Source: Candidatus Bipolaricaulota bacterium (GTDB taxonomy: Bacteria > Bipolaricaulota > Bipolaricaulia > RBG-16-55-9 > DRXL01). Taken from it: a stretch of 38,368 nt of DNA. The notes beneath the pieces are model-generated. The model was not told the DNA's origin, ran no database searches, and saw nothing but the letters and a program-made list of their open reading frames with translations. Every line of letters starts with the position of its first letter. Position 1 is the stretch's first letter. The stretch lies in NCBI GenBank assembly GCA_025061735.1, contig JANXAU010000017.1:1-38368 (forward strand), written 5' to 3'. A program made the position numbers and the translations under genes. Shown here piece by piece: positions 24,229-37,818 of this stretch.

Positions 24229-25323
24229 ATGAAGCGATTATCACGCGCTCTGCTTTGCGGTCTGCTCGTCTTGGTCTTCAGTGCGGTGATGCCTACGGTC
24301 GTCGTGGGGCAACAGTTTCTCGGGCGCTTCCTCAGCGAGCTGACGTTTCAGCCCACAGCTCCCTACTTCGTGAACGCGGAGTTTCGCGTGCTGTCTAAGA
24401 TCAGCGTCGCCGAAGCGGCGTTCGCGATAGACTCGAAATTCGATGTGGGGGCACTGCGCTGGCAGCGGTTTATCGCGTCGGTGACCGTGCCGCCGCTGAG
24501 CGCGCGCAATCGTCTGACGTTCGTGAACGGCTTTGCCTTCGGCAAGAACGAACTGGTCGCCGCGTTGCAGTTTGGCGGGGTTGCCCTAGGCATCGAGCTG
24601 ATTCTGCACAATCAAACCGCGACGTTCGACATCGAGTGCCCGCCTACGCCCATGACGCCCTCATTAGAAGTGGGCTTGGTGATCGAGGCCGGAGTCCGCA
24701 CCGAGTTCTTCGCGGTCGCCAGCTATACGGGCTTTGGCGTCATTCGCTTAGTAGAAGACTTAGATCAAGAGCAGTTGCCCATTATTAACGAGCCGTTTGC
24801 GTTTGAACCCCGGATCGTGATGCTTGATATCTTCAGCGAGCGCGAGCCGGATCGTCTCATCGTCGCGCCCTTTCAGTTCACTGAGCAAGTCGTCGCGTTT
24901 GAGTTCTATCTGATGAACGTCGTCTCGCTGAGTTCGCTCTCGGTCTTCACGCCGCTAGGATGGAAGAAGCAAATCCCCGGCTTGCTGGTGAAGGTCGACG
25001 CACCGGCGGCAAATCTGAAACTGCGCTTCAGCGTCAGCTCGACGTTTGAGCTGCCCGGCTTCTTCTTGACGTTCTTGCCCGTAGAGCTGGACTTGCGTTG
25101 GCTCTTCTTCCAATGGCGCAGCTTCACGCTCTTTGGCGATCCACCAGGGCCGACGCCCTTCTCGTTCCGCAAGCAAGTCTTCCAATCGCTCTTTGAGCTG
25201 AACTTCTTTCGAGGGTTCTTGGAGCTGTGCTTAGGTCCCGACTGCCCTTGTCCATTTGGGGGTCTGATCCCTAATCTACGCTGGCGCTTCGGGATCGAGC
25301 TGCGATTCCTCTTCGGCCCTTAA
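24229..25323 (+). CDS. Exported protein of unknown function, beta-rich
   Basis: I do not recognise the family. The 364-residue protein has a signal peptide (MKRLSRALLCGLLVLVFSAVM, cleaved near VVGQ). It then alternates hydrophobic and polar residues in strands of 8-12 residues with many aromatics, for example FGGVALGIELILHNQTATFDI and LRWRFGIELRFLF at the end. This resembles an outer-membrane beta-barrel or a periplasmic all-beta protein. Two cysteine pairs (C-P-P-T-P around residue 140, and CLGPDCPC near 336) could form disulfides. It converges on pafA, and the two stop codons are 2 nt apart. There is no sign of a role in the proteasome. Confidence 0.65.
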   Translation: MKRLSRALLCGLLVLVFSAVMPTVVVGQQFLGRFLSELTFQPTAPYFVNAEFRVLSKISVAEAAFAIDSKFDVGALRWQRFIASVTVPPLSARNRLTFVNGFAFGKNELVAALQFGGVALGIELILHNQTATFDIECPPTPMTPSLEVGLVIEAGVRTEFFAVASYTGFGVIRLVEDLDQEQLPIINEPFAFEPRIVMLDIFSEREPDRLIVAPFQFTEQVVAFEFYLMNVVSLSSLSVFTPLGWKKQIPGLLVKVDAPAANLKLRFSVSSTFELPGFFLTFLPVELDLRWLFFQWRSFTLFGDPPGPTPFSFRKQVFQSLFELNFFRGFLELCLGPDCPCPFGGLIPNLRWRFGIELRFLFGP

Positions 25324-25325
25324 TG

Positions 25326-26786
25326 CTATAGACGCTTGAGGAAGGCTTCAGCTTCTTCTTCGTAGGTGTGAAAGGGATTGGCCAAGACTAGCGTCTTCTT
25401 CGGTTCGACGAAGACCCCGTCCCACTCGATCATATACTCGTGCTTGCCGCGCGTACGCAGCCCGCGCACGATCATGGCGCGCCCGTAGGCGCGTGTATCC
25501 ACGGGTGGGTCTTCCATAGCTCGCAAGATCGCCCTATCGCTGACAAGCCGCACGCGATCTTCCAGGGCATAATGCAGCCCGTACTCTGGATCAATGTTGT
25601 GATATTCTAAATCTAGGCTGTGGATTGCCTCCGACTGCCACGAGAGGCCCTCGGCCTCTTGGTAGAGCCGCAACAATTTGTATTTAGCGACCCAGTCGAG
25701 CCGGTCGGCGAGCGTGAGCGGATCGCGTTCAAGAGCATCCAACGTGCGCTCCCACTCGCGCAGGACTTCGTCGGTCTCGGCATCGCGTCCCAAGAAGCGC
25801 TTCTGTGCCGCTTGTAGATAGATTCTTTGTAAGTCTATCGCCGAGATCGTCTGGCCGTTCTCGCGCCGCACCAGCCAGCGCCACGTCGGATCCCGCGAGA
25901 TCTCCTTCATGGCTTTTAAGGGCTGCACCAACTCGACGCCCAAGGGCACCGCGCGCTCTTCCAACAGATCGAGCACCAGGACGGTGGTGCCCATCTTGAG
26001 GAACGTCGCGTACTCGGAGGGATTGGCCTCCCCAAAGAGCAGATGGAGTCGGGGGCTGCGCGACAGCTCGTACATCTGATCCCACTTGGGGTTGATGAGC
26101 GCGCGGCTGAAGCGCACCCGCCCCGAGACCGTGTGCAGGATATGATCGGCGCGCTGCGAGAGCTGAAAATCTACGGTGGGATCGGGTTCGACGCTGTAAG
26201 CGGCGTCGACAAAGACATAATCAGCCGGGTGCCGGCTGCGCTGGTGGGAGAGGCGCTGCCAGTCGCTGGTCAGGCGATGCCCGCCCGCACGACCGGCCCC
26301 CGCGAAGATCTGGCGCGTCACCAAGAAGGGCACCAATTTTTCCAGGGCTTGCCGCCACGAGAGCGCCTCGACGTTGACCGAATAATTCTCATGACACCCG
26401 AAGGTATGCCCCGCAAAGTGATCCACGCTGTTGTTGTAAAAGCCGACGCGCTCGTGCCAGCGCAGGGCGCGCAGCGTCCGGACGATCAAGCGCTGGCCGG
26501 CGCGCTCATACGCGATGAGATCCCTCAGAGAGCGACACTCGGGGGTCGCGTACTCCAGATGCGTCCCGACGGCGTCGATGTAGAGCCGTCCCCCGTTGAT
26601 GAGAAAGCCCCCGGCCTCGGCCGGCTCAAAGTACATATCGCGCGTGTGCAGATCGAGCAGCCCCCACTGCCCCCGCGCGAAGATCGCCTCTTTGACCCGT
26701 TCGACGACCGTCTCGTACGACCCCAGAGCCGTATCACGCACCAGGCAGCCAAACTCCGTCTCCAGACCGACGATGCGATGTTCCAT
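25326..26786 (-). CDS. pafA: PafA-type ligase for the UBact modifier
   Basis: This 486-residue member of the Pup ligase/deamidase family (glutamine-synthetase-like fold) would attach the modifier's C-terminal glutamate to lysines of target proteins using ATP. Catalytic features are present: E9/E11 in GLETEFG, D71 in NGGRLYID, YNNS near 117, FGCHENYSVN near 129, FQLSQRAD near 207. It departs from the Mycobacterium enzyme in three ways. HPEY after the catalytic Asp reads HLEY. An insert of about 36 residues (169-205) precedes FQLSQRAD. The INTRDEPHAD motif is replaced by INPKWDQ. The ATG at 26786, 5 nt after the prcA stop, gives a family-like N-terminus; an upstream in-frame start would add 48 unrelated residues. 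Confidence 0.88.
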   Translation of the reverse strand: MEHRIVGLETEFGCLVRDTALGSYETVVERVKEAIFARGQWGLLDLHTRDMYFEPAEAGGFLINGGRLYIDAVGTHLEYATPECRSLRDLIAYERAGQRLIVRTLRALRWHERVGFYNNSVDHFAGHTFGCHENYSVNVEALSWRQALEKLVPFLVTRQIFAGAGRAGGHRLTSDWQRLSHQRSRHPADYVFVDAAYSVEPDPTVDFQLSQRADHILHTVSGRVRFSRALINPKWDQMYELSRSPRLHLLFGEANPSEYATFLKMGTTVLVLDLLEERAVPLGVELVQPLKAMKEISRDPTWRWLVRRENGQTISAIDLQRIYLQAAQKRFLGRDAETDEVLREWERTLDALERDPLTLADRLDWVAKYKLLRLYQEAEGLSWQSEAIHSLDLEYHNIDPEYGLHYALEDRVRLVSDRAILRAMEDPPVDTRAYGRAMIVRGLRTRGKHEYMIEWDGVFVEPKKTLVLANPFHTYEEEAEAFLKRL

Positions 26787-26791
26787 AATCT

Positions 26792-27523
26792 TTAGATAAA
26801 CCGCGACAGAGCTGTTTTCACGTCGCGGTCCTCCAGCATACGGAATCTCCGGTCGCGCCGCGAGTCGCGCTCCAGCAGCGCCGCTTCTAGCCTCCCGTGG
26901 CGCAGCTCTTGGGTCAGGCGCTCCTCCCATCTCTCTCCCGACTCTTTGAGAGAGCTACGCCCTACCACCCATGCTCGCAACGCGATCTCCAACGCGGCTT
27001 CCAGCTTAGGGACTCGCTTCAACTCGCTCAAGACTTGCTCCATCTCCACACGACTGGCCTCTCGCCCCGCCGCGGCTGCGTAGCGGTGATGGAGCGAAAA
27101 CTCGCCATCGTAGTTTAACAGATAATAGAGATCGTCTTCCGGGGTTGGCTCGACCTGGGCAAAGAGTCCCAAGAAGACCAGGGGCAATCTCAGGGGATCG
27201 CTGAAGCCCCGCTTGAGTGCCGGGCTGAGGGCCACGCCCACGACCCGCTGAATCGAGACGTCGTCGGGGCTGCGCTGGAAGCCCTCGGCGTGCGCAAAAT
27301 CTACGGCCAACTGACGGACGGCCTCTAGATCAGACTGATTCCCCAGCCCGGAGAACGCCAGACGGTCGTAGATCTCGAAGATCTTGCGCTGGCCACGCCG
27401 CACCGTCAAGAGCAAGATCCCCTCTTGGGTAGAGAGGGCCACCACGGGGCTGCCCTCTTTGAGACGGTCTTCGACGTAGTCGGCCTTCTGGCGGAGCGTC
27501 TGTTGCCAATTGTAGGGGGTCAT
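26792..27523 (-). CDS. prcA: 20S proteasome alpha subunit
   Basis: This 243-residue alpha subunit forms the outer rings and gate of the bacterial 20S core. The N-terminus YNWQQTLRQKADYVEDRL parallels the actinobacterial PrcA start, and the next strand SPVVALSTQEGILLLTVRRG is the first strand of the Ntn fold. YDRLAFSGLGNQSDLEAVRQLA follows the family pattern (D-iafag-G---e---lr). As expected for alpha subunits it lacks the catalytic N-terminal threonine. The start overlaps prcB by 4 nt, which suggests coupled synthesis of the two subunits. Confidence 0.93.
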   Translation of the reverse strand: MTPYNWQQTLRQKADYVEDRLKEGSPVVALSTQEGILLLTVRRGQRKIFEIYDRLAFSGLGNQSDLEAVRQLAVDFAHAEGFQRSPDDVSIQRVVGVALSPALKRGFSDPLRLPLVFLGLFAQVEPTPEDDLYYLLNYDGEFSLHHRYAAAAGREASRVEMEQVLSELKRVPKLEAALEIALRAWVVGRSSLKESGERWEERLTQELRHGRLEAALLERDSRRDRRFRMLEDRDVKTALSRFI

Positions 27524-28293
27524 AGGGTGAGCAGCTCGCGCTGGAGCGCGCGCAGCAGATCTTCTGAGAGTTCTTGAACACCGTCGGCGGTCACGGTCTT
27601 GGCCGAGGGCAGTCGGCGAATCCCGCTGGTGGCGGTATCGAGCGAAGCGGCGATCTCTAAGAGCAGAAGCGTCTCGCGCAGCGCCTCTTCGAGCTTCATC
27701 TGGCGGAACGGGCGTTTGGTGCGCACGATGTACTCAAACGCGCCGCGAATGCGCTCCGCTCCGGAGCCGGCCGCGCCAAACTCGCGGCTCTCGAAGCGCG
27801 CTCCCATGGCGTCGTAGAAGAAGATTCGGCCTTCGCGCTTCTCCCTGTCAAACGCGCTGACGATGGGCAAGAACCCCCCAATCCCTTGGAGCGCTCCCGG
27901 CAGGGCACGCCCCAGCACGCGCGAGACTTCGTGAAGCTTGCCCTCCAAGCTCATCTCTTGGAGCTGACTGCGCGCGTAGTACTTGAACGAGTGCTGCAGA
28001 AAGCGTACGGCCTCCGAAGCCGCCGCATACGAGCCCGCGATAGCGATGAGCGTCTCGTCGTCGAGCTTCAATATCTTTTCGGCCTCTTCGTAGAAGATCG
28101 CGTTGCCCGCGGTAGCGCGACGATCGGCGACGTTCAAGACGCCCTGGTCGAACTTCACGGCGATCACCGTCGTGCCGTGCACGTCGACCAGAGAAACTTG
28201 ATGGGTTCGTAAGTCGGCGTCCACCGTGGGGAACCGAATCCCCTGAGCCTCTAAGAGGCTCATCAAATCGCCAGGACTCCTTCGCTCAGACAC
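27520..28293 (-). CDS. prcB: 20S proteasome beta subunit (catalytic)
   Basis: The 257-residue precursor has a 40-residue propeptide ending in DVHG, then TTVIAVKF. Self-cleavage before T41 would expose the nucleophile. The other catalytic residues fall exactly where expected: D57 is Asp17 and K73 is Lys33 of the mature protein (VADRRATAG, EKILKLDDE). AGSYAAASEAVRFLQ and the GGFLPIVSAFD strand fit the PrcB family. It assembles with PrcA into the 28-subunit protease. It lies 31 nt after the UBact gene. Confidence 0.96.
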   Translation of the reverse strand: MSERRSPGDLMSLLEAQGIRFPTVDADLRTHQVSLVDVHGTTVIAVKFDQGVLNVADRRATAGNAIFYEEAEKILKLDDETLIAIAGSYAAASEAVRFLQHSFKYYARSQLQEMSLEGKLHEVSRVLGRALPGALQGIGGFLPIVSAFDREKREGRIFFYDAMGARFESREFGAAGSGAERIRGAFEYIVRTKRPFRQMKLEEALRETLLLLEIAASLDTATSGIRRLPSAKTVTADGVQELSEDLLRALQRELLTL

Positions 28294-28324
28294 GTTGTAA
28301 GTCCTCCGGTTGACAAGCTAAGAG

Positions 28325-28492
28325 CTACTCCCCGCTGCGCTGCCGATAGCGCTGCGCCTGACGCGGATCCACACGGCGCATCTTCTCTAAAAGCCTTTCG
28401 GCATCGGGCTTAGGAACGTTGGGCGTCCGCGGGCCATCGCCCTCTTCGCGCTTCGTCCACGGTTCGCTCGGCCTGACGATTCGCTCCGGCAT
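28325..28492 (-). CDS. UBact, a bacterial ubiquitin-like (Pup-like) protein modifier
   Basis: This short gene (55 codons plus TAG) lies between dop and prcB, exactly where pup sits in actinobacteria. The product starts MPERIVRPSEPWTKREEG, has the core GDGPRTPNVPKPD (residues 18-30), and then a helix-prone, arginine-rich end RRVDPRQAQRYRQRSGE. These are the hallmarks of UBact, the Pup-like modifier known from Nitrospirae and several candidate phyla. Like Pup it is small, polar and probably disordered. It ends in Ser-Gly-Glu55, the form ready for ligation. Lysines K14, K28 and K37 could carry chains. AAGGAGGG precedes the ATG by 7 nt, so high expression is likely. Gaps are 23 nt to dop and 31 nt to prcB. 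Confidence 0.93.
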   Translation of the reverse strand: MPERIVRPSEPWTKREEGDGPRTPNVPKPDAERLLEKMRRVDPRQAQRYRQRSGE

Positions 28493-28515
28493 CGTGAAGG
28501 CCCTCCTTTCTCAGA

Positions 28516-30003
28516 TTAGAGCTGCTTTATCATACGCCAAAGCGCTCGCGGTGTCGAGGCCGCCTCTATGCTCTCCAAGGCAAGAGCGTTCAGGCGACCG
28601 TCCACCCAGCGTGTCAAGTCAATAGTAAGCTCTCCCTCGCCGTCGCGCAAGTGGATCTTGCCCCAGTTGAGGGCTAGGATCGAATCTGAGAACTTCTGCA
28701 CGCAGAGGCCGCGCACCCAGGCGCGCGTCTCTTTGGGAGGACTCTTGCGCGCTTGCTCTATCTCCGAATCGCTCACTATGCGCCGACAGCAGCCCTGACG
28801 CTGCAACTCGTAAAACAACCCCCGCTGCGGATCCAGATTGTGATACTCCAAGTCCAGGCTGCGCAGGATCTCGTCTTGCCATGTGAGCCTCTCCGACTCT
28901 ACAAATTGCTGCAACAGCTGATACTTAGCTGCCCAGTCGACGCGATCCGCGCAGCGCGTGGGATCGCGCTCTAGGTCGTCTAGGATAGACTCCCATTCGC
29001 GCAGCACCCAGTTGGTCTCCTCGTCGCGCCCAAGAAAGAGCTCTTGAGCCGCGCGCAGATAGAGGCGCTGTAGCTCCAGAGCCGAGATCGTGCCCTCGCC
29101 TTCCAGCTCGACGATCCAACGACGGTTGGCATCGCGCGAGAGCTTCTGCAGGGTCTCTACGGGCTGTTTGAGCCTTCCCGGCGGGCCGTAGCCCAATTCG
29201 AGCATCCCAAGCACCAACGCGGTTGTCCCTATTTTGAGGGCGGTCGCGTACTCGTTCAAATTAGCGTCGCCGCAGATGACGTGCAAGCGGCGATAGTGCT
29301 TGGCATCGGCGTGGGGTTCGTCGCGGGTGTTGATGAGCGGGCGACGATGGAGCGTATCCACGCTGCATAGCTCGGTGAAGAAGTCTGCTCGTTGCGAGAG
29401 CTGAAAGTCTATCTTGGGATCGGATTCGCTCCCCACACGACCCGCCCCAGCGAAGAGAATGCGCGTCACCAGAAAGGGCGTCAAGCCCGCGATGAGCCGC
29501 TCGAAGGGGAGCTTGCGCTGCACAAGATAGTTCTCGTGGCAGCCGTAGCTCATGCCGTGATAGTCTATATTGTTTTTGAAGATCGAGACGGCGCGCCCGG
29601 TCCGTTGGGCGTACGCTTGGGCGGCCTCCCAGACGATGCGTTCGCCGGCTTTGTCGTGGGCGATTAAGCCGCGCAGCGAGCGGCATTCGGGGGTGCTGTA
29701 TTCGGGATGCCCGTGGTCGTGATAGAAGCGTGCGCCGTTGCCGAGCACGCGATCGGCGTGGTCTTCCGAGGCGCTGAGCATCCGGTGGGTGGGCTTCTCG
29801 TAGCGAGCGTCTTCGGGATTGACGGAGAGCGCGGGGGCGCGTCCGCCGCGCGCGTCGCGCAGCGGGTCTTCATCGCTGTAGTCCCACGGGCCGGTTCCGG
29901 GATAGCTCTGGACGAGCGCGCGGGCTTCGTCGGCCAATTCGGCAATCTCCACCCCCTCGATGAAAATCCCGTACTCGGTTTCGATCCCCAAGAGACGATC
30001 CAT
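28516..30003 (-). CDS. dop: Dop-type deamidase/deconjugase of the modifier
   Basis: The 495-residue homologue of Dop removes the modifier from substrates and in Gln-ended systems converts the terminal Gln to Glu. It is assigned as Dop and not ligase because it has WDYSDEDPLRDARGG (residues 40-54), matching the Dop loop region of mycobacteria. It also has NGARFYHDHGHPEYSTPE with the catalytic D96, FKNNIDYHGMSYGCHENYL, and intact INTRDEPHADAKHYRRLHV. GIETEYG at 6-12 holds the metal-binding glutamates. It is the first gene of the proteasome operon. The ATG has no ribosome site and sits 6 nt after a -10 box, so translation from a leaderless mRNA is expected. Confidence 0.92.
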   Translation of the reverse strand: MDRLLGIETEYGIFIEGVEIAELADEARALVQSYPGTGPWDYSDEDPLRDARGGRAPALSVNPEDARYEKPTHRMLSASEDHADRVLGNGARFYHDHGHPEYSTPECRSLRGLIAHDKAGERIVWEAAQAYAQRTGRAVSIFKNNIDYHGMSYGCHENYLVQRKLPFERLIAGLTPFLVTRILFAGAGRVGSESDPKIDFQLSQRADFFTELCSVDTLHRRPLINTRDEPHADAKHYRRLHVICGDANLNEYATALKIGTTALVLGMLELGYGPPGRLKQPVETLQKLSRDANRRWIVELEGEGTISALELQRLYLRAAQELFLGRDEETNWVLREWESILDDLERDPTRCADRVDWAAKYQLLQQFVESERLTWQDEILRSLDLEYHNLDPQRGLFYELQRQGCCRRIVSDSEIEQARKSPPKETRAWVRGLCVQKFSDSILALNWGKIHLRDGEGELTIDLTRWVDGRLNALALESIEAASTPRALWRMIKQL

Positions 30004-30050: not shown

Positions 30051-30854
30051 TTAGGGAGAGCCCCTGCGCACTACACGCTCATCCTCAATCTTCTCAAGAG
30101 TAAGACTATCGGCGAGATAGGGCCAACGCTGGCGCGCTTCGGCGATCTGCGCGAGATCAATCTTGACCGTATAAACGCCCTCGGCGTCTTCAGCCTCAAA
30201 GAGCACCTCTCCCCGAGGCGAGACGACCATCGAGTGCCCGCTCACCGGACGATCATCGGGATAGAAAGATTTCGTATTATTCGCAAACGCTACGAAGATC
30301 GTGTTCTCGGCGGCGCGGGCACACAGCAGCGATCTCCAAAGCCCTATGCGATTCTCGGGAATATTTGAGGGGTTGAAGAGAATGTGAATCTCGCGCTGCG
30401 CCAAAGAGCGCACCAGCTCGGGATAAAAAAGATCAACGCAGATTGCTACCCCAAAGCGCGCTTTTTCTGATGAGAAGACGGGCAAACGCTCCCCAAAGCG
30501 CAAGAACGCGCGCTCGCCTACAGCATTTGATGGGAAGATTTTTTCAGCGTATCCCACGACAGCGCCGTCGGGACTGATAACGTGCCCAAGGGCGATTCTG
30601 TGGTCTCTACGCTCGACGATGAGACTGCCTGTGAGCAGCGTGTAGCGCCCCTGCTGAGCGTATCGCCCCAGAAGCGCAAGCACGTCCGCAAGCTCCCCTT
30701 CGTTGAACACGACGACGCCGGCCCAGTTCTCCGGCAGACAAACAATATCTACGTTGCGAATCTGTTCGAGCAAGCGCGTGACGGTCTGGAGATTCTTCGC
30801 TCTGTCGAGCCGATCACGCGCTGGTTGCACAAGGGCGATCTTCATCGCGCTCAC
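30051..30854 (-). CDS. Nitrilase-family carbon-nitrogen hydrolase
   Basis: This 267-residue amidohydrolase has the Glu-Lys-Cys triad: E in CLPENWAG (near 42), K in YAEKIFPS (near 108), C in GVAICVDLFYPE (near 142). GHSMVVSPRGEVL follows near 210. Such enzymes hydrolyse amides, for example omega-amidase or N-carbamoyl substrates. The specificity cannot be read here. The start is GTG at 30854, overlapping the upstream stop, or ATG at 30845 (MKIALVQPA). It is on the same strand as the proteasome operon and just before it, but the operon has its own promoter. Confidence 0.88.
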   Translation of the reverse strand: MSAMKIALVQPARDRLDRAKNLQTVTRLLEQIRNVDIVCLPENWAGVVVFNEGELADVLALLGRYAQQGRYTLLTGSLIVERRDHRIALGHVISPDGAVVGYAEKIFPSNAVGERAFLRFGERLPVFSSEKARFGVAICVDLFYPELVRSLAQREIHILFNPSNIPENRIGLWRSLLCARAAENTIFVAFANNTKSFYPDDRPVSGHSMVVSPRGEVLFEAEDAEGVYTVKIDLAQIAEARQRWPYLADSLTLEKIEDERVVRRGSP

Positions 30855-31513
30855 CCTTCAGGGCGCTCTCCAAAGATCTTTGTGCCAATGCGCACGACGT
30901 TCGCGCCCTCTTCTAAAGCGATCCTATACGTGTTGCTCATACCCATCGAGAGATACTTCATCTCGACGTTGGGAATGCTTAGAGCCTTGAGGCTCTCAAA
31001 GAGCTTCTTCGTCTCTTGGAAGTACGGACGAGCCTCTTCGGGGTTGCCAAAGCGCGGCCCCATCGTCATCAAGCCCAAAACTTTGAGATGGGGAAGCGGC
31101 GCGACTTCTCTAATCAGAGTCTCAGCGTCTTCGGGGAGGACTCCCGACTTTTGCGGCTCGCGCCCGCTGTTGATCTCGATCAAGACGGGCATCGTCTTCC
31201 CCAAGCGAGCGCAGTGCTTCTCCAGCTCGTGCGCCAGCTCTACGGAGTCGAGCGTCTCGATCATATCAAAGATTTCTACAGCCCTCTTCGCTTTGTTTCT
31301 CTGTAAGTGTCCGATCATGTGCCATTGGGCGCGCCGCCCGATCACCGAAAAAGCTCGCTCGGCTTCTTGGACGTAGTTCTCGCCGATGATCGGCACCCCG
31401 GCTGCGATGGCTTCTGAAATCTCTTGGGGCGTGCGCCCTTTCGCCGCCGCCACCAAGAGCACCCCCGGGGGCAGCTCGGCTAGGAGCTTCTGGACGTTCT
31501 CGCGAATGGTCAT
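30851..31513 (-). CDS. YggS/PROSC-type PLP homeostasis protein
   Basis: The 220-residue single-domain PLP protein has the alanine racemase-like barrel. PLP lysine K25 is in VAAAKGRTP. IGENYVQEA (43-51), WHMIGHLQRNKAKRAV (near 64-79), LSMGMSNTYRIALEEGANVVRIGTKIFG at the end are the family signature. It buffers PLP in the cytoplasm and has no known catalytic turnover. It overlaps the nitrilase gene by 4 nt. Confidence 0.95.
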   Translation of the reverse strand: MTIRENVQKLLAELPPGVLLVAAAKGRTPQEISEAIAAGVPIIGENYVQEAERAFSVIGRRAQWHMIGHLQRNKAKRAVEIFDMIETLDSVELAHELEKHCARLGKTMPVLIEINSGREPQKSGVLPEDAETLIREVAPLPHLKVLGLMTMGPRFGNPEEARPYFQETKKLFESLKALSIPNVEMKYLSMGMSNTYRIALEEGANVVRIGTKIFGERPEG

Positions 31514-31519
31514 AGTCTA

Positions 31520-31591
31520 GGCCCTCACCCCGGCCTAACGGCCACCCCTCTCCCGTCGGTGACGACGGGAGAGGGGACGGGGGTGAGGGCC
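31520..31591. repeat. Palindromic element, intergenic copy
   Basis: Seventy-two bases begin with GGCCCTCACCCC and end with GGGGTGAGGGCC. Inside are a GGCC-taac-GGCC mini-hairpin and a 13-bp stem (CCCCTCTCCCGTC with its complement). It fills the gap between pepA and the YggS-type gene. Related elements lie at 32312-32361 and 34968-35036. Confidence 0.8.
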
Positions 31592-33109
31592 TCACCAATC
31601 TTGTAATAACTGCATGAGCAATCGCACCCCGTACCCCGTTGCGCCCTTGGCGTGATAGAGCCGGCTTTCGACGTCATACGCGACCCCAGCGATGTCTAGG
31701 TGCGCCCAGGGATAATTAACGAACTCCTTCAAGAAGATCGCGCCGATGGACGCGCCCGCCTGCGGGCCTTTGTTCGCGCTGTTTTTGATATCGGCGATCT
31801 CGCTCTTGATGATCTCTTTGTATTCTTCATAGAGGGGCAAGGGCCAGACGCGCTCCCCTGTCTGTTGGGCAGCTTTCTGAATCTTCTGAGCAAGAGACTC
31901 GTCGTTGGAGAACAAGCCGGCGGCTTCTTTGCCCAGCGCAATCGTGCACGCGCCCGTCAGTGTCGCTACGTCTATCACGGCTTGGGGATTGTATCTTTGG
32001 GCATAGACGAGCGCATCGGACAGCACCAATCTCCCTTCCGCGTCGGTGTTGGTCACTTCGACGGTCTTGCCGTTGGAGATTCTTATGACATCGCCGGGCT
32101 TGAGGGCCTTGCCCGACGGCAAGTTCTCGGCGGCAGCAACTAAGCCCACAACCGAGATGGGCAGCTTCAGCCGCGCGACCGCGCGCATCACGCCCAAGAC
32201 GGCCGCCGCGCCGCTCATGTCGTACTTCATCGCCTCCATGCCCTCGCGGGGTTTGATCGAGATACCCCCGCTGTCAAACGTGATCCCCTTGCCCGCCAGC
32301 ACGATGGGCCGACCCTCACCCTGCCCCCTCTCCCTTAAAGGGGGAGGGATGGGGTGAGGGTTGTACTCTAGCACGATGAGTCTTGGCGGCTCGTCGCTGC
32401 CCTTGCCCACCGCGAGAATCCCGCCCATGCCCATCTGTTCTAAAATTTTCTCGTCGAAGACCTCGCAGCGCAGCCCAAGCTCTTGAGCTAGCTCTTGCGC
32501 ACGACGCGCCAGCTCCCTTGGGGTCAGGCTCTGCCCCGGCTCGTTCGCAAGATCACGAGCCAAGCACACAGAGTCTGCAATGATCTGCCCCTGCTGCGCC
32601 CCACGCTTCAGTTGCTCTATTTTCTCTGCGCTGTGCTCGACAATGCGCAGACGCTCGAGCTTGATCGGCTCTTCGGGTTTCTTAAATTTTTCGAAGCGAT
32701 ATAAGCCCAGCAGCGTCCCTTCGACGGTTGCTTGGGCCGCTAGTTGGGGATCCAGCCCGCCGATGCCCGCGCCGTGCGCGAGGGCCGTCAGCTCTGGGAG
32801 AGATTTCGCGACGCGGGCGGCAACGGCGCTCACTTCGCGAACGACATCGGCTGAAAATCTTTCAGACGGTCCCAGGCCGACCAACAAGACGCGCTTGGCT
32901 CCGAGCTTGCCGCGCGTGCGCAGCCAGAAGACCTCGCCCTTCTTGCCCGAGAAATCTCCATCGGCCAAGACCTCCGAGAGCGCACCGTCGAGAGCTCTGT
33001 CAACAGCACCAGCGGCCCCACCAGGGCGCTGCACGCCCTGAAAGATCCCCAGACAGATCGCTTCGGTCTCGACTTTGGTGATATCGCCTTGCTCTACAGA
33101 TACGTGCAT
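31592..33109 (-). CDS. pepA: Leucyl aminopeptidase (M17) with an in-frame palindrome insert
   Basis: This 505-residue M17 metallopeptidase removes N-terminal residues from peptides, a plausible final step after proteasomal degradation. Active-site motifs are GKGITFDSGGISIKP (273-287), MKYDMSGAAAVLG and NTDAEGRLVLSDAL with its metal-binding Asp/Glu. Between LIVLEY and RPIVLAGKG, residues 250-266 (NPHPIPPPLRERGQGEG) are the translation of a palindromic repeat. Normal family members pass directly from one strand to the next there. The insert is in frame and in a surface loop before the active-site domain, so activity may survive. A promoter lies at 33133-33161, and GAGGGGGGA is the ribosome site. 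Confidence 0.95.
   Translation of the reverse strand: MHVSVEQGDITKVETEAICLGIFQGVQRPGGAAGAVDRALDGALSEVLADGDFSGKKGEVFWLRTRGKLGAKRVLLVGLGPSERFSADVVREVSAVAARVAKSLPELTALAHGAGIGGLDPQLAAQATVEGTLLGLYRFEKFKKPEEPIKLERLRIVEHSAEKIEQLKRGAQQGQIIADSVCLARDLANEPGQSLTPRELARRAQELAQELGLRCEVFDEKILEQMGMGGILAVGKGSDEPPRLIVLEYNPHPIPPPLRERGQGEGRPIVLAGKGITFDSGGISIKPREGMEAMKYDMSGAAAVLGVMRAVARLKLPISVVGLVAAAENLPSGKALKPGDVIRISNGKTVEVTNTDAEGRLVLSDALVYAQRYNPQAVIDVATLTGACTIALGKEAAGLFSNDESLAQKIQKAAQQTGERVWPLPLYEEYKEIIKSEIADIKNSANKGPQAGASIGAIFLKEFVNYPWAHLDIAGVAYDVESRLYHAKGATGYGVRLLMQLLQDW
32312..32361. repeat. Palindromic element inside pepA
   Basis: Fifty bases run from ACCCTCACCC to GGGTGAGGGT, with an inner CCCCCTCTCCCTT / AAGGGGGAGGG stem. 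It is a shorter relative of the elements at 31520 and 34968. It encodes about 17 extra residues without breaking the frame. Confidence 0.8.
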
Positions 33110-33268: not shown

Positions 33269-34402
33269 ATGAGCGATGAACAATTCATCATCGAGGGCAC
33301 AGATTTCCAAAAGCTGCTGGACGCGCTGCGCCAGCAGGGCTACACGACCGTTGGCCCCACCGTGCGCGATGGCGCTATCGTCTACGACGAGATCGCTTCT
33401 GTGAAAGACTTGCCCATCGGCTGGACGGACGAGCAAGACGGCGGCCGATATCGACTCCAAAAGCGAAACGATCAAGCCCTCTTTGGCTACGTCGTCGGGC
33501 CCCATTCGTGGAAGAAGTTCTTGCACCCCCCGGTCTTGTCACTGTGGAAGGCGCGCAAGAACGGAAAGAGCTTTGAGATTCTCCCCAATCGTAACGACTC
33601 CCCTCGCTATGCGTTCATCGGCGTTCGCTCGTGCGAGTTGCACGCGATCTTTATCCAAGATCGCGTCTTCACCAACGGAAAATTCATAGATCCGCACTAT
33701 CAAGCTCGCCGTCAGAAGGTTTTTATCGTCGCGGTCAACTGCGTCCAAGCCGGCGGCACCTGCTTCTGCGTCTCGATGAAGACCGGCCCGAAAGCCACTC
33801 TTGGATTCGATCTGGCGCTCACAGAGATCATAGACGGTCAGAAGCACTATTTCGTTGTCGAGGTCGGCACGGAGAAGGGCGCCGAGATCATACAAAGAGT
33901 GCCGGCGAAGCCCGCTCAGCCCAACGATATACAAATCGCCGAAGAGCGCATCGCCCGCGCGGCCCAGCAGATGGGGCGCCATCTCGACACGACCGATATT
34001 AAGAATCTGCTCTATCGAAATTTAGAGCACCCGCGCTGGGACGAAGTCGCTACGCGCTGCCTCAACTGCGCCAACTGCACGATGGTCTGCCCCACCTGCT
34101 TCTGCACCACGGTAGAAGACGTGACCGACCTGACGGGCACCGAAGCCGAGCGCGTGCGCAAGTGGGACTCGTGCTTCACAATGGATTTTTCGTACATTCA
34201 CGGCGGGAGCGTGCGCGCGTCGGCCAAGTCGCGCTATCGGCAGTGGCTCACGCACAAGCTTGCCAGTTGGATAGATCAGTTCGGGACTTCAGGCTGCGTC
34301 GGCTGTGGACGGTGCATCACGTGGTGTCCCGTAGCGATTGACATCACCGAAGAGGTTCGTGCGATTCGTGAGAGCGAGCAAGTCAGCAAGAAAGGGGAAT
34401 AG
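33269..34402 (+). CDS. hydB: Group 3b-like [NiFe] hydrogenase beta subunit, Fe-S protein
   Basis: The 377-residue protein resembles the HydB subunit of sulfhydrogenase-type complexes. It would carry electrons between the flavin subunit and the hydrogenase dimer. Two [4Fe-4S] motifs are visible: [16 protein letters not shown] (near 265) and [17 protein letters not shown] (near 340). The first half includes [19 protein letters not shown] and [12 protein letters not shown], also seen in the family. It is first in a five-gene operon. Confidence 0.9.
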
Positions 34403-34404
34403 CG

Positions 34405-34866
34405 ATGGAGATGTTGGATCGTCTGTTGGCCGAACACCCGTTCTTTAAAGACTTAGACCCGCGCTACATCAAGCTGATCGCTGAGTGTGCGCGCAACGTT
34501 ACGTTCAAGGCTGGAGATTTCATCTTTCGGGAGGGAGACCCCTCTAATAAGTTCTGGCTGATTCGCTCTGGCAAGGTGTCGCTGGAGGTCTTTGCTCCCG
34601 GACGTGGGCCAATCATGATCGAGACGCTCGGCGACGGCGACGTGATGGGCTGGTCGTGGGCCGTGCCGCCCTACAGAAAACAGTACGATGCCCGCGCTCT
34701 CGAGCTGACGCGCGCGCTGGAGTTCGATGCCCTGTGCATTCGCGGCAAGTGCGACGAAGAGCCAAAGCTCGGCTATGAACTCTTCAAGCGTTTTGCTCAG
34801 ATCATCGGGCAGCGCTTGCAGGCCACTCGTCTCCGATTGATTGATATCTATGGCGGTCGCAGTTAA
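34405..34866 (+). CDS. Cyclic nucleotide-binding-domain protein in the hydrogenase operon
   Basis: The 153-residue protein is a single cNMP-binding (Crp-like) domain: [29 protein letters not shown] (35-63) and [14 protein letters not shown] (72-85). A helix follows, and no DNA-binding domain. It may regulate the complex or be a structural subunit, but it cannot act as a classical transcription factor. The canonical phosphate-binding GE-A-R motif is not clear ([14 protein letters not shown] instead), so ligand binding is doubtful. It overlaps the gamma gene by 17 nt. Confidence 0.85.
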
Positions 34867-35755
34867 GCCCCAGACGATTGAGATCTCGGCTGATCCGATG
34901 GTGCCCGTGCCGTATCGGGTGCTGCGCGTGCGGCGCGAGACGCCGGATACGTTTACGTTAGAATTAGAGGCCCTCACCTCGGCCTTCGGCCACCCCTCTC
35001 CCGTCCAGACGGGAGAGGGGTCGGGGGTGAGGGCCTTTGCACCGGGCCAGTTCAACATGCTCTATCTCTTCGGCGTGGGCGAAGTGCCTATCTCGATCAG
35101 CGGCGACCCGGCGCAGCCCGAGGTCTTGGTGCACACGGTACGCGCTGTGGGCGCTGTGACAAGAGCGATCTGTGCGCTCAAGCGCGACGAGATCGTAGGG
35201 GTGCGCGGCCCCTTCGGCAGCGCCTGGCCCGTAGCAGAAGCCGTTGGGAATGACATTGTGATCGTCGCTGGGGGCGTGGGCTTAGCCCCGCTGCGCCCGG
35301 CGATCTATCACTTATTAAACCATCGCCACGAGTACGGACGCGTCGCGCTGCTCTACGGCGCGCGCACGCCCAAAGATATGCTCTACAAAAGAGAGCTTTC
35401 GGAATGGCGCGGGCGCTTTGACATCCAGGTCGAGGTCACCGTAGACGCTGCCAGACCCGACGAGTGGCGCGGCAACGTGGGCGTCGTCACGACGCTCATC
35501 TCGAGAGCGAATTTCGATCCGTTCCACACAACGGCGCTCGTCTGCGGCCCAGAGGTGATGATGCGCTTCACGATTCTGGAGCTCCAGAAGCGCGAGCTGC
35601 GCGACGATCAGATCTATATCTCGATGGAGCGCAACATGAAGTGCGCTATCGGGTTCTGCGGGCACTGTCAGTACGGCCCAAACTTTGTCTGCAAGGACGG
35701 TCCGGTCTTCCGATTTGACAAAGTCAGGGAGCTTTTCGGAAAGCGAGAGATCTGA
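34850..35755 (+). CDS. hydG: Group 3b-like hydrogenase gamma subunit, FAD/NAD(P)-binding, with in-frame palindrome insert
   Basis: The 302-residue flavin reductase-like subunit passes electrons to NAD(P) (Pyrococcus HydG type, unrelated to the [FeFe] maturase of that name). It has [13 protein letters not shown] (FAD domain), [21 protein letters not shown] (nucleotide-binding), and a C-terminal Cys cluster [20 protein letters not shown] for [2Fe-2S]. Residues 40-63 ([20 protein letters not shown] and on) come from a 69-bp palindromic element inserted in frame between TFTLELE and FAPGQFN, which are adjacent strands in normal homologues. The ATG at 34850 lies within the end of the preceding gene. 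Confidence 0.92.
34968..35036. repeat. Palindromic element inside hydG
   Basis: The element is 69 bases, exactly 23 codons, from AGGCCCTCACC to GGTGAGGGCCT. It has a GGCC-ttc-GGCC mini-hairpin and a CCCCTCTCCCGTC/GACGGGAGAGGGG stem, nearly the same as the intergenic copy at 31520. Its length keeps the reading frame open. Confidence 0.85.
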
Positions 35756-35756
35756 G

Positions 35757-36539
35757 ATGCCCAAAGCGAAGAGGCCGAAGATTGCTGTCTGGAAGTTTGC
35801 GTCGTGCGACGGATGCCAATTGAGTCTCTTAGACTGCGAAGACGAGCTGCTTGCCGTCGCTGGAGCTGTTGATATTGCGTATTTTCTAGAAGCGTCGCGC
35901 GCGGTCGTCAAGGGGCCGTACGATATTTCGCTCGTCGAAGGCTCGATCACGACCCCGCACGACGCCGAACGCATCCAAGAAGTGCGCCGCGTCTCCACAT
36001 TCTTGATCACGATTGGGGCGTGCGCGACGGCGGGAGGCATCCAGGCCCTGCGCAACTTCAAGGACGTCAAAGAGTTTATCTCGATCGTCTACGCCAAGCC
36101 CGAATATATCAGCACGCTCGACAAATCAACGCCTATTGCCGATCACGTCAAAGTAGACTTCGAGCTGCGCGGCTGCCCCGTGAATAAATATCAGTTGATC
36201 GAAGTGATCAATGCGTTTCTGAACCGGCGCAAGCCGAACGTGCCGACTTATAGCGTCTGTGTGGAGTGCAAGCGGCGGGGGACGCCGTGCGTGATGGTGG
36301 CGCGCGGGACGCCGTGCTTGGGGCCGGTGACGCAGGCGGGCTGTGGCGCGATCTGCCCGGCGTACCATCGCGGCTGCTACGGGTGCTTCGGCCCCAAGGA
36401 GACTCCCAATACAGTATCGCTGAGCGCATGGTGGCGAAAGCTCGGCGTCAACGATCACGACTTGGTTCGGGCGTTCCGGGGCTTCAACGCCTACGCCGAG
36501 CCGTTCCGAAAAGAGAGTGAGCGCTATGAGCAAAGATAG
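35757..36539 (+). CDS. hydD: Group 3b-like hydrogenase delta (small) subunit
   Basis: The 260-residue small subunit would hold the Fe-S clusters. Visible are [15 protein letters not shown] (proximal cluster, near 15-29), [18 protein letters not shown], and the Cys-rich end [20 protein letters not shown]...[19 protein letters not shown]. It lacks a Tat signal, so the enzyme is cytoplasmic. The ATG at 35757 is the second base after the hydG stop and matches the family start; a longer in-frame opening is ignored. It is coupled to hydA by overlap. Confidence 0.93.
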
Positions 36540-37818
36540 AACGATCAAAGTGGACTATCTGGCGCGCGTCGAGGGCGAGGGCGCACTCTACGTCAAGGTC
36601 AGGGGCAATACAGTTACAGATGTGAAGCTGAAGATCTTCGAGCCGCCGCGCTTCTTTGAAGCGTTCTTGCGCGGGAGAAGCTTCAGCGAAGCTCCAGATA
36701 TTACCGCGCGCATCTGCGGAATCTGCCCGATTGCGTATCAGATGAGTGCGTGTCACGCGATGGAGGACGCCTGCGGCGTTGCTGTAGACGGGCAACTGCG
36801 AGCACTGCGTCGGCTCATCTATTGCGGCGAATGGATCGAGAGTCATGTGCTGCACGTGGCGATGTTGCACGCCCCGGATTTTTTGGGCTACGAGAGCGCG
36901 ATCCACATGGCCAAAGACTATCCCGATCTGGTGCAGCAAGCTCTCAAGCTCAAGAAAGCCGGAAACGAGATCGTCGCGTTCCTTGGGGGGCGGGAGATTC
37001 ATCCCATCAACGTGCGCGTCGGGGGCTTTTACAAAGTCCCCACCAAGAACGAGCTTCGCGAGCTAGTCCCCAATCTGCAATGGGCGCGCGACGCGGCCTA
37101 TGAGCTGGTGCGCTGGACGGGGTCTTTAGAGTTTCCAGATTTCGAGCAAGGCTATGAGTTCGTCGCGCTGCGACATCCAGACGAGTACCCGTTCAACGAA
37201 GGACGGCTTGTCTCGAGTAAGGGCTTGGACATCGCGATTCGCGAGTACGAAGAGCACTTTATCGAGGAGCACGTCGAGCATTCCAACGCGCTGCACTCCG
37301 TGATCAAAGGGCGCGGGAACTATTTCGTTGGTCCGTTGGCGCGCTACAATCTCAACTTCGATAAACTCCCGCGCTTGGTGCAAAAAGCTGCCAAAGAAGC
37401 GGGTCTTGGCCCAGTCTGCAAGAACCCGTTCCAGAGCATTATCGTTCGTGCAGTGGAGACGCTCTATGCGTGCGAAGAAGCCTTGAGAATCATCAATCAG
37501 TACGAGATGCCGGAGAAGCCTTTTGTAGAAGTGCACCCGCGGGCCGGGGTCGGCTGCGGCTGTACCGAAGCGCCACGGGGCATTCTCTACCATCGGTATC
37601 GAATTGACGATCAGGGCACGATCTTGGATGCCAAGATCGTCCCGCCCACGTCGCAAAACCTGAAGACCATCGAGAGCGACCTGCGGCACTTCGTCCCCAA
37701 TAACATCAGTCTCTCTAAAGATCAGTTAACATGGAAGTGCGAACAAGCGATTCGCAATTACGACCCATGCATCTCGTGCGCGACGCACTTTCTCAAGCTT
37801 GAGATCGAGCGCGAGTAA
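36526..37818 (+). CDS. hydA: Group 3b-like hydrogenase alpha (large, NiFe) subunit
   Basis: The 430-residue catalytic subunit has both NiFe-binding CxxC pairs: C64/C67 in [15 protein letters not shown] and C415/C418 in DPCISCATH. Nine residues (FLKLEIERE) follow H421, which is where a maturation protease cuts, so this looks like the unprocessed form of a nickel-dependent enzyme. No protease or Hyp genes are in the window. It works with hydB, hydG and hydD in NAD(P)-linked H2 (or sulfur) metabolism. It is the last gene before an intrinsic terminator. Confidence 0.95.

Follow-up and report, generated by a model that had tools for sequence, protein, structure and literature searches.

The window analysed here, the whole 38,368-nucleotide contig JANXAU010000017.1 of a Candidatus Bipolaricaulota bacterium (assembly GCA_025061735.1), carries on its minus strand, from 30003 to 25326, five genes in the order dop, UBact, prcB, prcA and pafA, at the places given by an original prediction made from the sequence alone. 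Taken together with an ARC-type ATPase whose gene lies elsewhere in the genome, on a separate contig, this operon very probably constitutes a complete UBact-proteasome system, comprised of a ubiquitin-like modifier (UBact), a ligase (PafA), a depupylase-type enzyme (Dop), the 20S core particle (PrcA and PrcB) and an ATPase motor. The observations behind this reading are the genes themselves, the families to which their products belong, the conserved catalytic residues, the conserved gene order and the unlinked ATPase. Coordinates of the features are collected in Table 1.

Identity of the modifier, enzymes and core particle

The 55-residue product encoded between dop and prcB had been proposed to be a UBact-family modifier with a C-terminal SGE, and profile searches bear this out, with scores of 73.6 bits against Pfam PF20513 (E 1.1e-20; curated cut-off 27.8) and 73.8 bits against NCBIfam NF033388 (E 9.5e-21; cut-off 35). 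UBact is the only family listed for this product in Pfam and NCBIfam at E values up to 1, and the models of the Pup family, which we take to be PF05639 and TIGR03687, are therefore without a match. The gene had also been described as easily missed, which is only partly right since both databases hold UBact models.

The product of dop scores 458.8 bits against the Dop model TIGR03688 (cut-off 492.3) compared to 355 bits against the PafA model TIGR03686, and its best matches in the PDB are the Dop chains 4b0r and 5lrt. The second enzyme of this fold scores nearly equally against the two profiles (278.4 bits for PafA, 272.6 bits for Dop), and phmmer ranks Dop chains first among its PDB matches; it is called PafA because the Dop loop is absent and because it groups with the PafA sequences in an alignment (A4). 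The listed pafA open reading frame reaches 26930, but homology sets in only at residue 49-52, and the ATG at 26786, five bases past the prcA stop codon, is for this reason probably the true start. The start of prcA overlaps the end of prcB.

PrcB scores 124.7 bits against TIGR03690, under the cut-off of 191.9, and its residue 41 aligns with residue 1 of PDB chain 1q5q_H, the mature N-terminal threonine of solved structures. PrcA is a divergent alpha subunit, recognized by the bacterial model TIGR03691 at E 5.3e-22 (78.4 bits, under the cut-off of 139.05), by PF00227 at 0.0013 (also under the cut-off) and by alpha subunits in the PDB at E 3e-8. The catalytic residues named in the original prediction are correctly placed and are invariant in the other loci compared: Asp96 of Dop is kept in 52/52, Asp71 of PafA (numbered from the ATG at 26786) in 35/35, and Thr41, Asp57 and Lys73 of PrcB, corresponding to the T1/D17/K33 triad, in 53/53.

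The ATPase of the system

The window holds no ATPase that could unfold tagged substrates, and it had been left open whether one lies elsewhere or whether a non-canonical ATPase serves in its place. The question is settled as the former by a gene on contig C38 of the same genome (1.64 Mb in 80 contigs, 93% complete), the product of which is by its sequence an ARC/Mpa homologue; a non-canonical ATPase is not needed. A search of the genome for the proteasomal ATPase OB domain gave a single match, on this contig. The encoded protein, of 576 residues from a TTG codon or 572 from the presumed start, scores 442.2 bits against the bacterial proteasome ATPase model TIGR03689 (cut-off 504.75) compared to 180 bits against PAN. 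It matches Mpa with an E value of 1.7e-99 (5kwa), with fuller Mpa chains aligned over residues 69-562 of 576, and a coiled coil was judged by eye. A CDC48-type ATPase was considered and set aside; of its three sub-cut-off matches, one is ARC itself and another is weakly ARC-like by tblastn. Another candidate activator, Bpa, has no match in the genome, a result that is uninformative as the controls gave no match either.

In two genomes of the order to which the window belongs, the ARC gene is interrupted near the Walker A motif by an intein bearing a LAGLIDADG domain (L034:1525-4611 in G064; L044:1759-3789 in G062); no intein was seen in the ARC of the window's genome.

Distribution and conservation

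The phylum search covered 100 genomes, the window's own included, 19 of which belong to its order. UBact was found in 15 of these 19 (own included), spread over eight genera and four families, and in none of the remaining 81. The distribution of the other components follows the same boundary: across the 100 genomes, Pup_ligase and the ATPase OB domain occur in 16 each and strong PrcB matches (E < 1e-30) in 15, all within the order, and the 81 genomes outside it show no UBact, Pup_ligase or ATPase OB domain. Eight further genomes bear weak PrcB matches only (E 1.6e-6 or worse), taken to be HslV-like. Within the order, both genomes of one family (f4) are devoid of UBact, Pup_ligase, the ATPase OB domain and strong PrcB, and one genome that is 69% complete (G049) displays the ATPase domain only, within an open frame of 339 residues. 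A true loss of UBact and PrcB was not accepted for G064, where the absence is attributed to breaks in the assembly (dop starts at the very edge of contig C224, and pafA ends on C155). Nor was a second UBact gene accepted for G062, the two matches of which lie at the ends of contigs of 3789 and 3411 bases with an identical overlap and look like one gene split by the assembly.

When genome contigs were scanned more widely using the UBact alignment, 167 stretches matched, of which 56 were confirmed as loci. These carry the names of Bipolaricaulota/Acetothermia, of Ca. Fraserbacteria RBG_16_55_9 (L063) and OFTM103, or of Armatimonadota-type organisms, or have no phylum in the title. Ca. Fraserbacteria RBG_16_55_9 is reportedly among the organisms first named in connection with UBact, which also occurs in Nitrospirota and other phyla. 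One of the loci encodes a 98% identical UBact, and the source of the window is taken to be a Fraserbacteria-related member of the Bipolaricaulota. The position of the frame between dop and prcB, as well as its sequence, is conserved in Bipolaricaulota and Armatimonadota. Of the two outcomes by which the original prediction would have been refuted, absence of a UBact-family match and absence of a conserved frame at this position, neither was observed.

The uncorrected ratio of the proportions of non-synonymous and synonymous differences (pN/pS) in UBact is 0.23 when pooled over 11 genomes, 0.11 against G055, 0.15-0.19 against the sister genus and 0.29-0.33 against G048, G061 and G062; the pair with G056 holds a single change and is uninformative, and distant pairs are near saturation. 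Judged by these ratios, the UBact frame is under purifying selection. The modifier ends in Gly-Glu in 11 and in Gly-Gln in four of the 15 UBact proteins of the order, and the corresponding counts in the wider set are 32/56 and 24/56 (the window omitted, the G062 gene counted twice, and L104 and L105 representing one genome).

The locus varies in its composition. ARC adjoins dop in eight genomes of the order (G047, G048, G057 and G060-G064); among the 41 UBact loci outside it, 27 have ARC upstream of dop. In G054, ARC shares a contig with the operon at a distance of some 34 kb, and in G051 and G056 pafA is on a separate contig. Insertions were also observed, namely a multi-gene insert between prcB and prcA in G060 (L035:4090-10640), MoxR/DUF58 operon-like by eye, and in G053 (L045:4544-4807) a small gene resembling a HicB-type antitoxin by eye, which separates UBact from prcB and borders on masked sequence.

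The ARC tail and the PrcA lysine

The ARC of the window's genome ends in ETVV. In all 43 tails read, which come from UBact-bearing lineages, the last two residues are each Val or Ile, and none of the 43 has a penultimate tyrosine. These alignment-based counts include the tails for which the 3' end of ARC is present (16 of the 17 order genomes with ARC evidence, G049 being left out, and 27 of the 41 other UBact loci), and the rule covers Bipolaricaulota and Armatimonadota-type loci, the patterns of the locus scan having been built from the window's order. On the side of the core particle, Lys47 of PrcA is a lysine in 51 of 51 PrcA sequences, the window's own included, and its counterpart in the Rhodococcus-type chain 1q5q is a lysine that is presumably the docking-pocket lysine.

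Mycobacterial Mpa is reported to bind the core through a C-terminal GQYL bearing the penultimate tyrosine (PMC8755798). A second report describes broad conservation of the GQYL motif and a requirement of the related activator PafE for a lysine in the alpha subunit (PMC12288473). The actinobacterial control with an intact ARC end, Nonomuraea, likewise has a GQYL tail; the contrast with actinobacteria is comprised of this one genome and the papers. A frameshift that would give the ARC studied here a QYL tail was sought in the three frames past the stop codon, and none was seen. A tail that is so uniform and yet unlike GQYL suggests that these systems may dock by a code distinct from that of Mpa. 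A literature search by title and abstract, with most subscription journals outside its reach, found no paper on an ARC tail of this [VI][VI] type. The uniform, tyrosine-free tail makes a testable question of how a bacterial proteasome motor docks without a GQYL/HbYX-like motif.

Proposed mechanism and alternative readings

By analogy with the Pup pathway, PafA would use ATP to activate the side-chain carboxylate of the C-terminal glutamate of UBact and would then join the modifier to lysines of target proteins, from which Dop may remove it again. No deamidation would be needed for the UBact of the window because its gene already ends in a glutamate codon; in the Gly-Gln relatives, by contrast, the tag would need deamidation by Dop. 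ARC would catch the modifier, unfold the target and deliver it to the PrcA/PrcB chamber for predicted cleavage by Thr41 of PrcB. Docking of ARC on the core would proceed through its tyrosine-free C-terminus of two branched aliphatic residues and would use the conserved PrcA lysine.

Several points weigh against such an integrated pathway. Its support comes from genes and sequence rather than biochemistry, and PrcA, PrcB, Dop, PafA and ARC each score under their NCBIfam equivalog cut-offs. In the genus of the window and in its sister genus, ARC is not adjacent to the operon, and 14 of the 41 UBact loci outside the order have no ARC end within the stretch, some of them on short contigs. Finally, the coupling of ARC to PrcAB is unproven because ARC is devoid of the GQYL tail that mycobacterial Mpa uses.

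The last point leads to the alternative that best survives, in which UBact would mark proteins non-degradatively, ARC would act as a free unfoldase and PrcAB would be opened by another activator. The total absence of a penultimate tyrosine and the unlinked ARC of the window's own genus are what such a separation of functions would have in its favour, but the parts co-occur across the order and are missing together from both members of f4. Moreover, ARC sits next to or upstream of dop in the many loci described above, its C-terminal pair of residues consists of Val or Ile throughout, and the PrcA lysine is invariant, such that this explanation is considered improbable. Less probable still, and very unlikely, is that the operon is decaying or was recently acquired and is non-functional in this lineage. 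The divergence of PrcA, the separation of ARC and the placement of pafA on another contig in G051 and G056 might be read as signs of erosion, but the catalytic residues are kept, pN/pS is low both among members of the family and in comparison with a single genus from a different one, and UBact spans eight genera and four families of the order. That the 55-codon frame is a chance open reading frame between two real genes, an idea encouraged by its shortness, is refuted by scores far above the curated cut-offs, the ribosome-binding site, the pooled pN/pS and the retention of its place and sequence in both phyla. The complete UBact-proteasome system is thus the reading preferred here.

UBact genes in viral contigs

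A search of IMG/VR revealed nine contigs (L114, L115 and L117-L123), all fragments classed as viral by that database, which encode UBact-family proteins of 53 to 55 residues that score 46 to 54 bits, all above the cut-off of 27.8, and end in Gly-Glu in 9/9. The contigs represent fewer than nine lineages, since L117 and L118 match each other at 98% across long segments, and the pooled pN/pS of 0.28 was obtained over seven sequences, two of which are identical. In eight of the nine (L121 being the exception), a deoxynucleoside monophosphate (dNMP) kinase (PHROG 139) is encoded downstream of UBact, at a distance of no more than about 1 kb. Further PHROG matches include a gp32-type single-strand binding protein in L115 and L122 (E 4e-109 in L122), exonucleases and an alpha-glucosyltransferase in L120 and in the remainder of the record to which it belongs, DNA methyltransferases in L117, L120 and L122, endolysins in L114, L115 and L121, and two baseplate wedge proteins in L121. 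These contents are consistent with a reading of the contigs as T4-like. The dNMP kinase, taken by itself, is widespread in phages, and the T4 major capsid protein Gp23 found no match in the nine viral records, a result that is uninformative as no control matched either.

A search for Dop/PafA in the viral contigs gave 16 stretches that matched the pattern and no relatives among them, and comparison of the window's UBact and of one phage UBact with 50,697 phage records likewise yielded no match, the best E value being 2. In the portions of the literature on phage-encoded tags that were examined, neither UBact nor pupylation appears. A tentative picture, held with rather more doubt than confidence, combines these observations with the ARC tail: UBact systems would use their own [Val/Ile]-[Val/Ile] docking code, and T4-like phages would have captured UBact, borrowing the host ligase so as to label proteins of the host, or jamming the host system, during infection. 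The captured modifier would be conjugation-ready by virtue of its Gly-Glu end, with no Dop or PafA of the phage's own detected. Eukaryotic viruses exploit ubiquitin, and the phage UBact genes suggest that bacterial viruses may target the proteasome of their hosts by way of the tag.

Features of the window and neighbouring genes

Table 1. Features of the UBact-proteasome system in the window and of related genes on other contigs
Feature	Location	Strand	Description	Evidence
dop	28516..30003	-	depupylase-type enzyme, 495 residues, Dop loop, D96	PF03136 E 1.9e-160
UBact ribosome-binding site	28502..28508	-	AAGGAGG, upstream of ATG	by eye
UBact	28325..28492	-	55-residue ubiquitin-like modifier, SGE end	PF20513, NF033388
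prcB GGAGG	28303-28307		suitable distance	by eye
prcB	27520..28293	-	20S proteasome beta subunit, propeptide then T41	PF00227 E 3.9e-23
prcA	26792..27523	-	divergent 20S proteasome alpha subunit, K47	TIGR03691
pafA	25326..26786	-	ligase, 486 residues from ATG at 26786 (probable start), D71, no Dop loop	PF03136 E 2.6e-118
ARC	G000 (genome of the window):C38 about 26793-28523 (L050:4797-6524)	-	two OB domains and AAA	Pfam
Phage UBact, example	L117:6388-6546
Phage UBact, example	L120:9953-10117
Phage UBact, example	L121:2913-3077

Just upstream of dop and on the same strand (30051-33109) are genes for an M17 aminopeptidase, an alanine-racemase-N-domain protein (YggS-like by eye) and a carbon-nitrogen hydrolase. 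An aminopeptidase also lies directly upstream of dop in G055, and the M17 enzyme could serve in the finishing of proteasome peptides. Beyond these genes, at 33269-37818, is an apparent [NiFe] hydrogenase cluster (an Fe-S protein with small and large subunits), inside which resides a gene for a cyclic-nucleotide-binding protein. On the other side of the operon (24229-25323), a protein of 364 residues with no Pfam match at E 0.001 is encoded convergently with pafA, and occupies the same place in G055.

Comparison with known systems

Lehmann et al. are said to have described UBact with its conjugation system and proteasome in 2017, and the operon type is for this reason not new: the system of the window belongs to the already described UBact-proteasome type. 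The same UBact, Dop, PafA, PrcB and PrcA are gathered in one operon with ARC in the genome, and nothing essential differs; in the window's genome ARC is not linked to the operon. The systems read in Bipolaricaulota and in Armatimonadota-type loci have the [VI][VI] end of ARC in common. Dop/PafA homologues are described as sporadic in Armatimonadetes and other phyla (PMC7947786).

The actinobacterial Pup-proteasome system (Mpa/ARC, PafA, Dop and PrcBA) employs the same enzyme families, and the catalytic residues of the window's enzymes could be aligned with those of Nonomuraea Dop and of solved chains. Its gene order is similar, and Pup itself ends in Gly-Glu or Gly-Gln. The two systems differ in the tag, which by profile is UBact here and not Pup, and in the tail of the ATPase, which ends in two aliphatic residues here compared to GQYL in the Pup system. 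The archaeal PAN/20S system shares a 20S core and an AAA motor with an OB domain, but ARC is far closer to the bacterial model than to PAN (442 compared to 180 bits), and neither UBact nor Pup_ligase found a match in four archaeal control genomes. Set among these relatives, the operon extends the record of UBact and settles the question of the missing ATPase for this genome.

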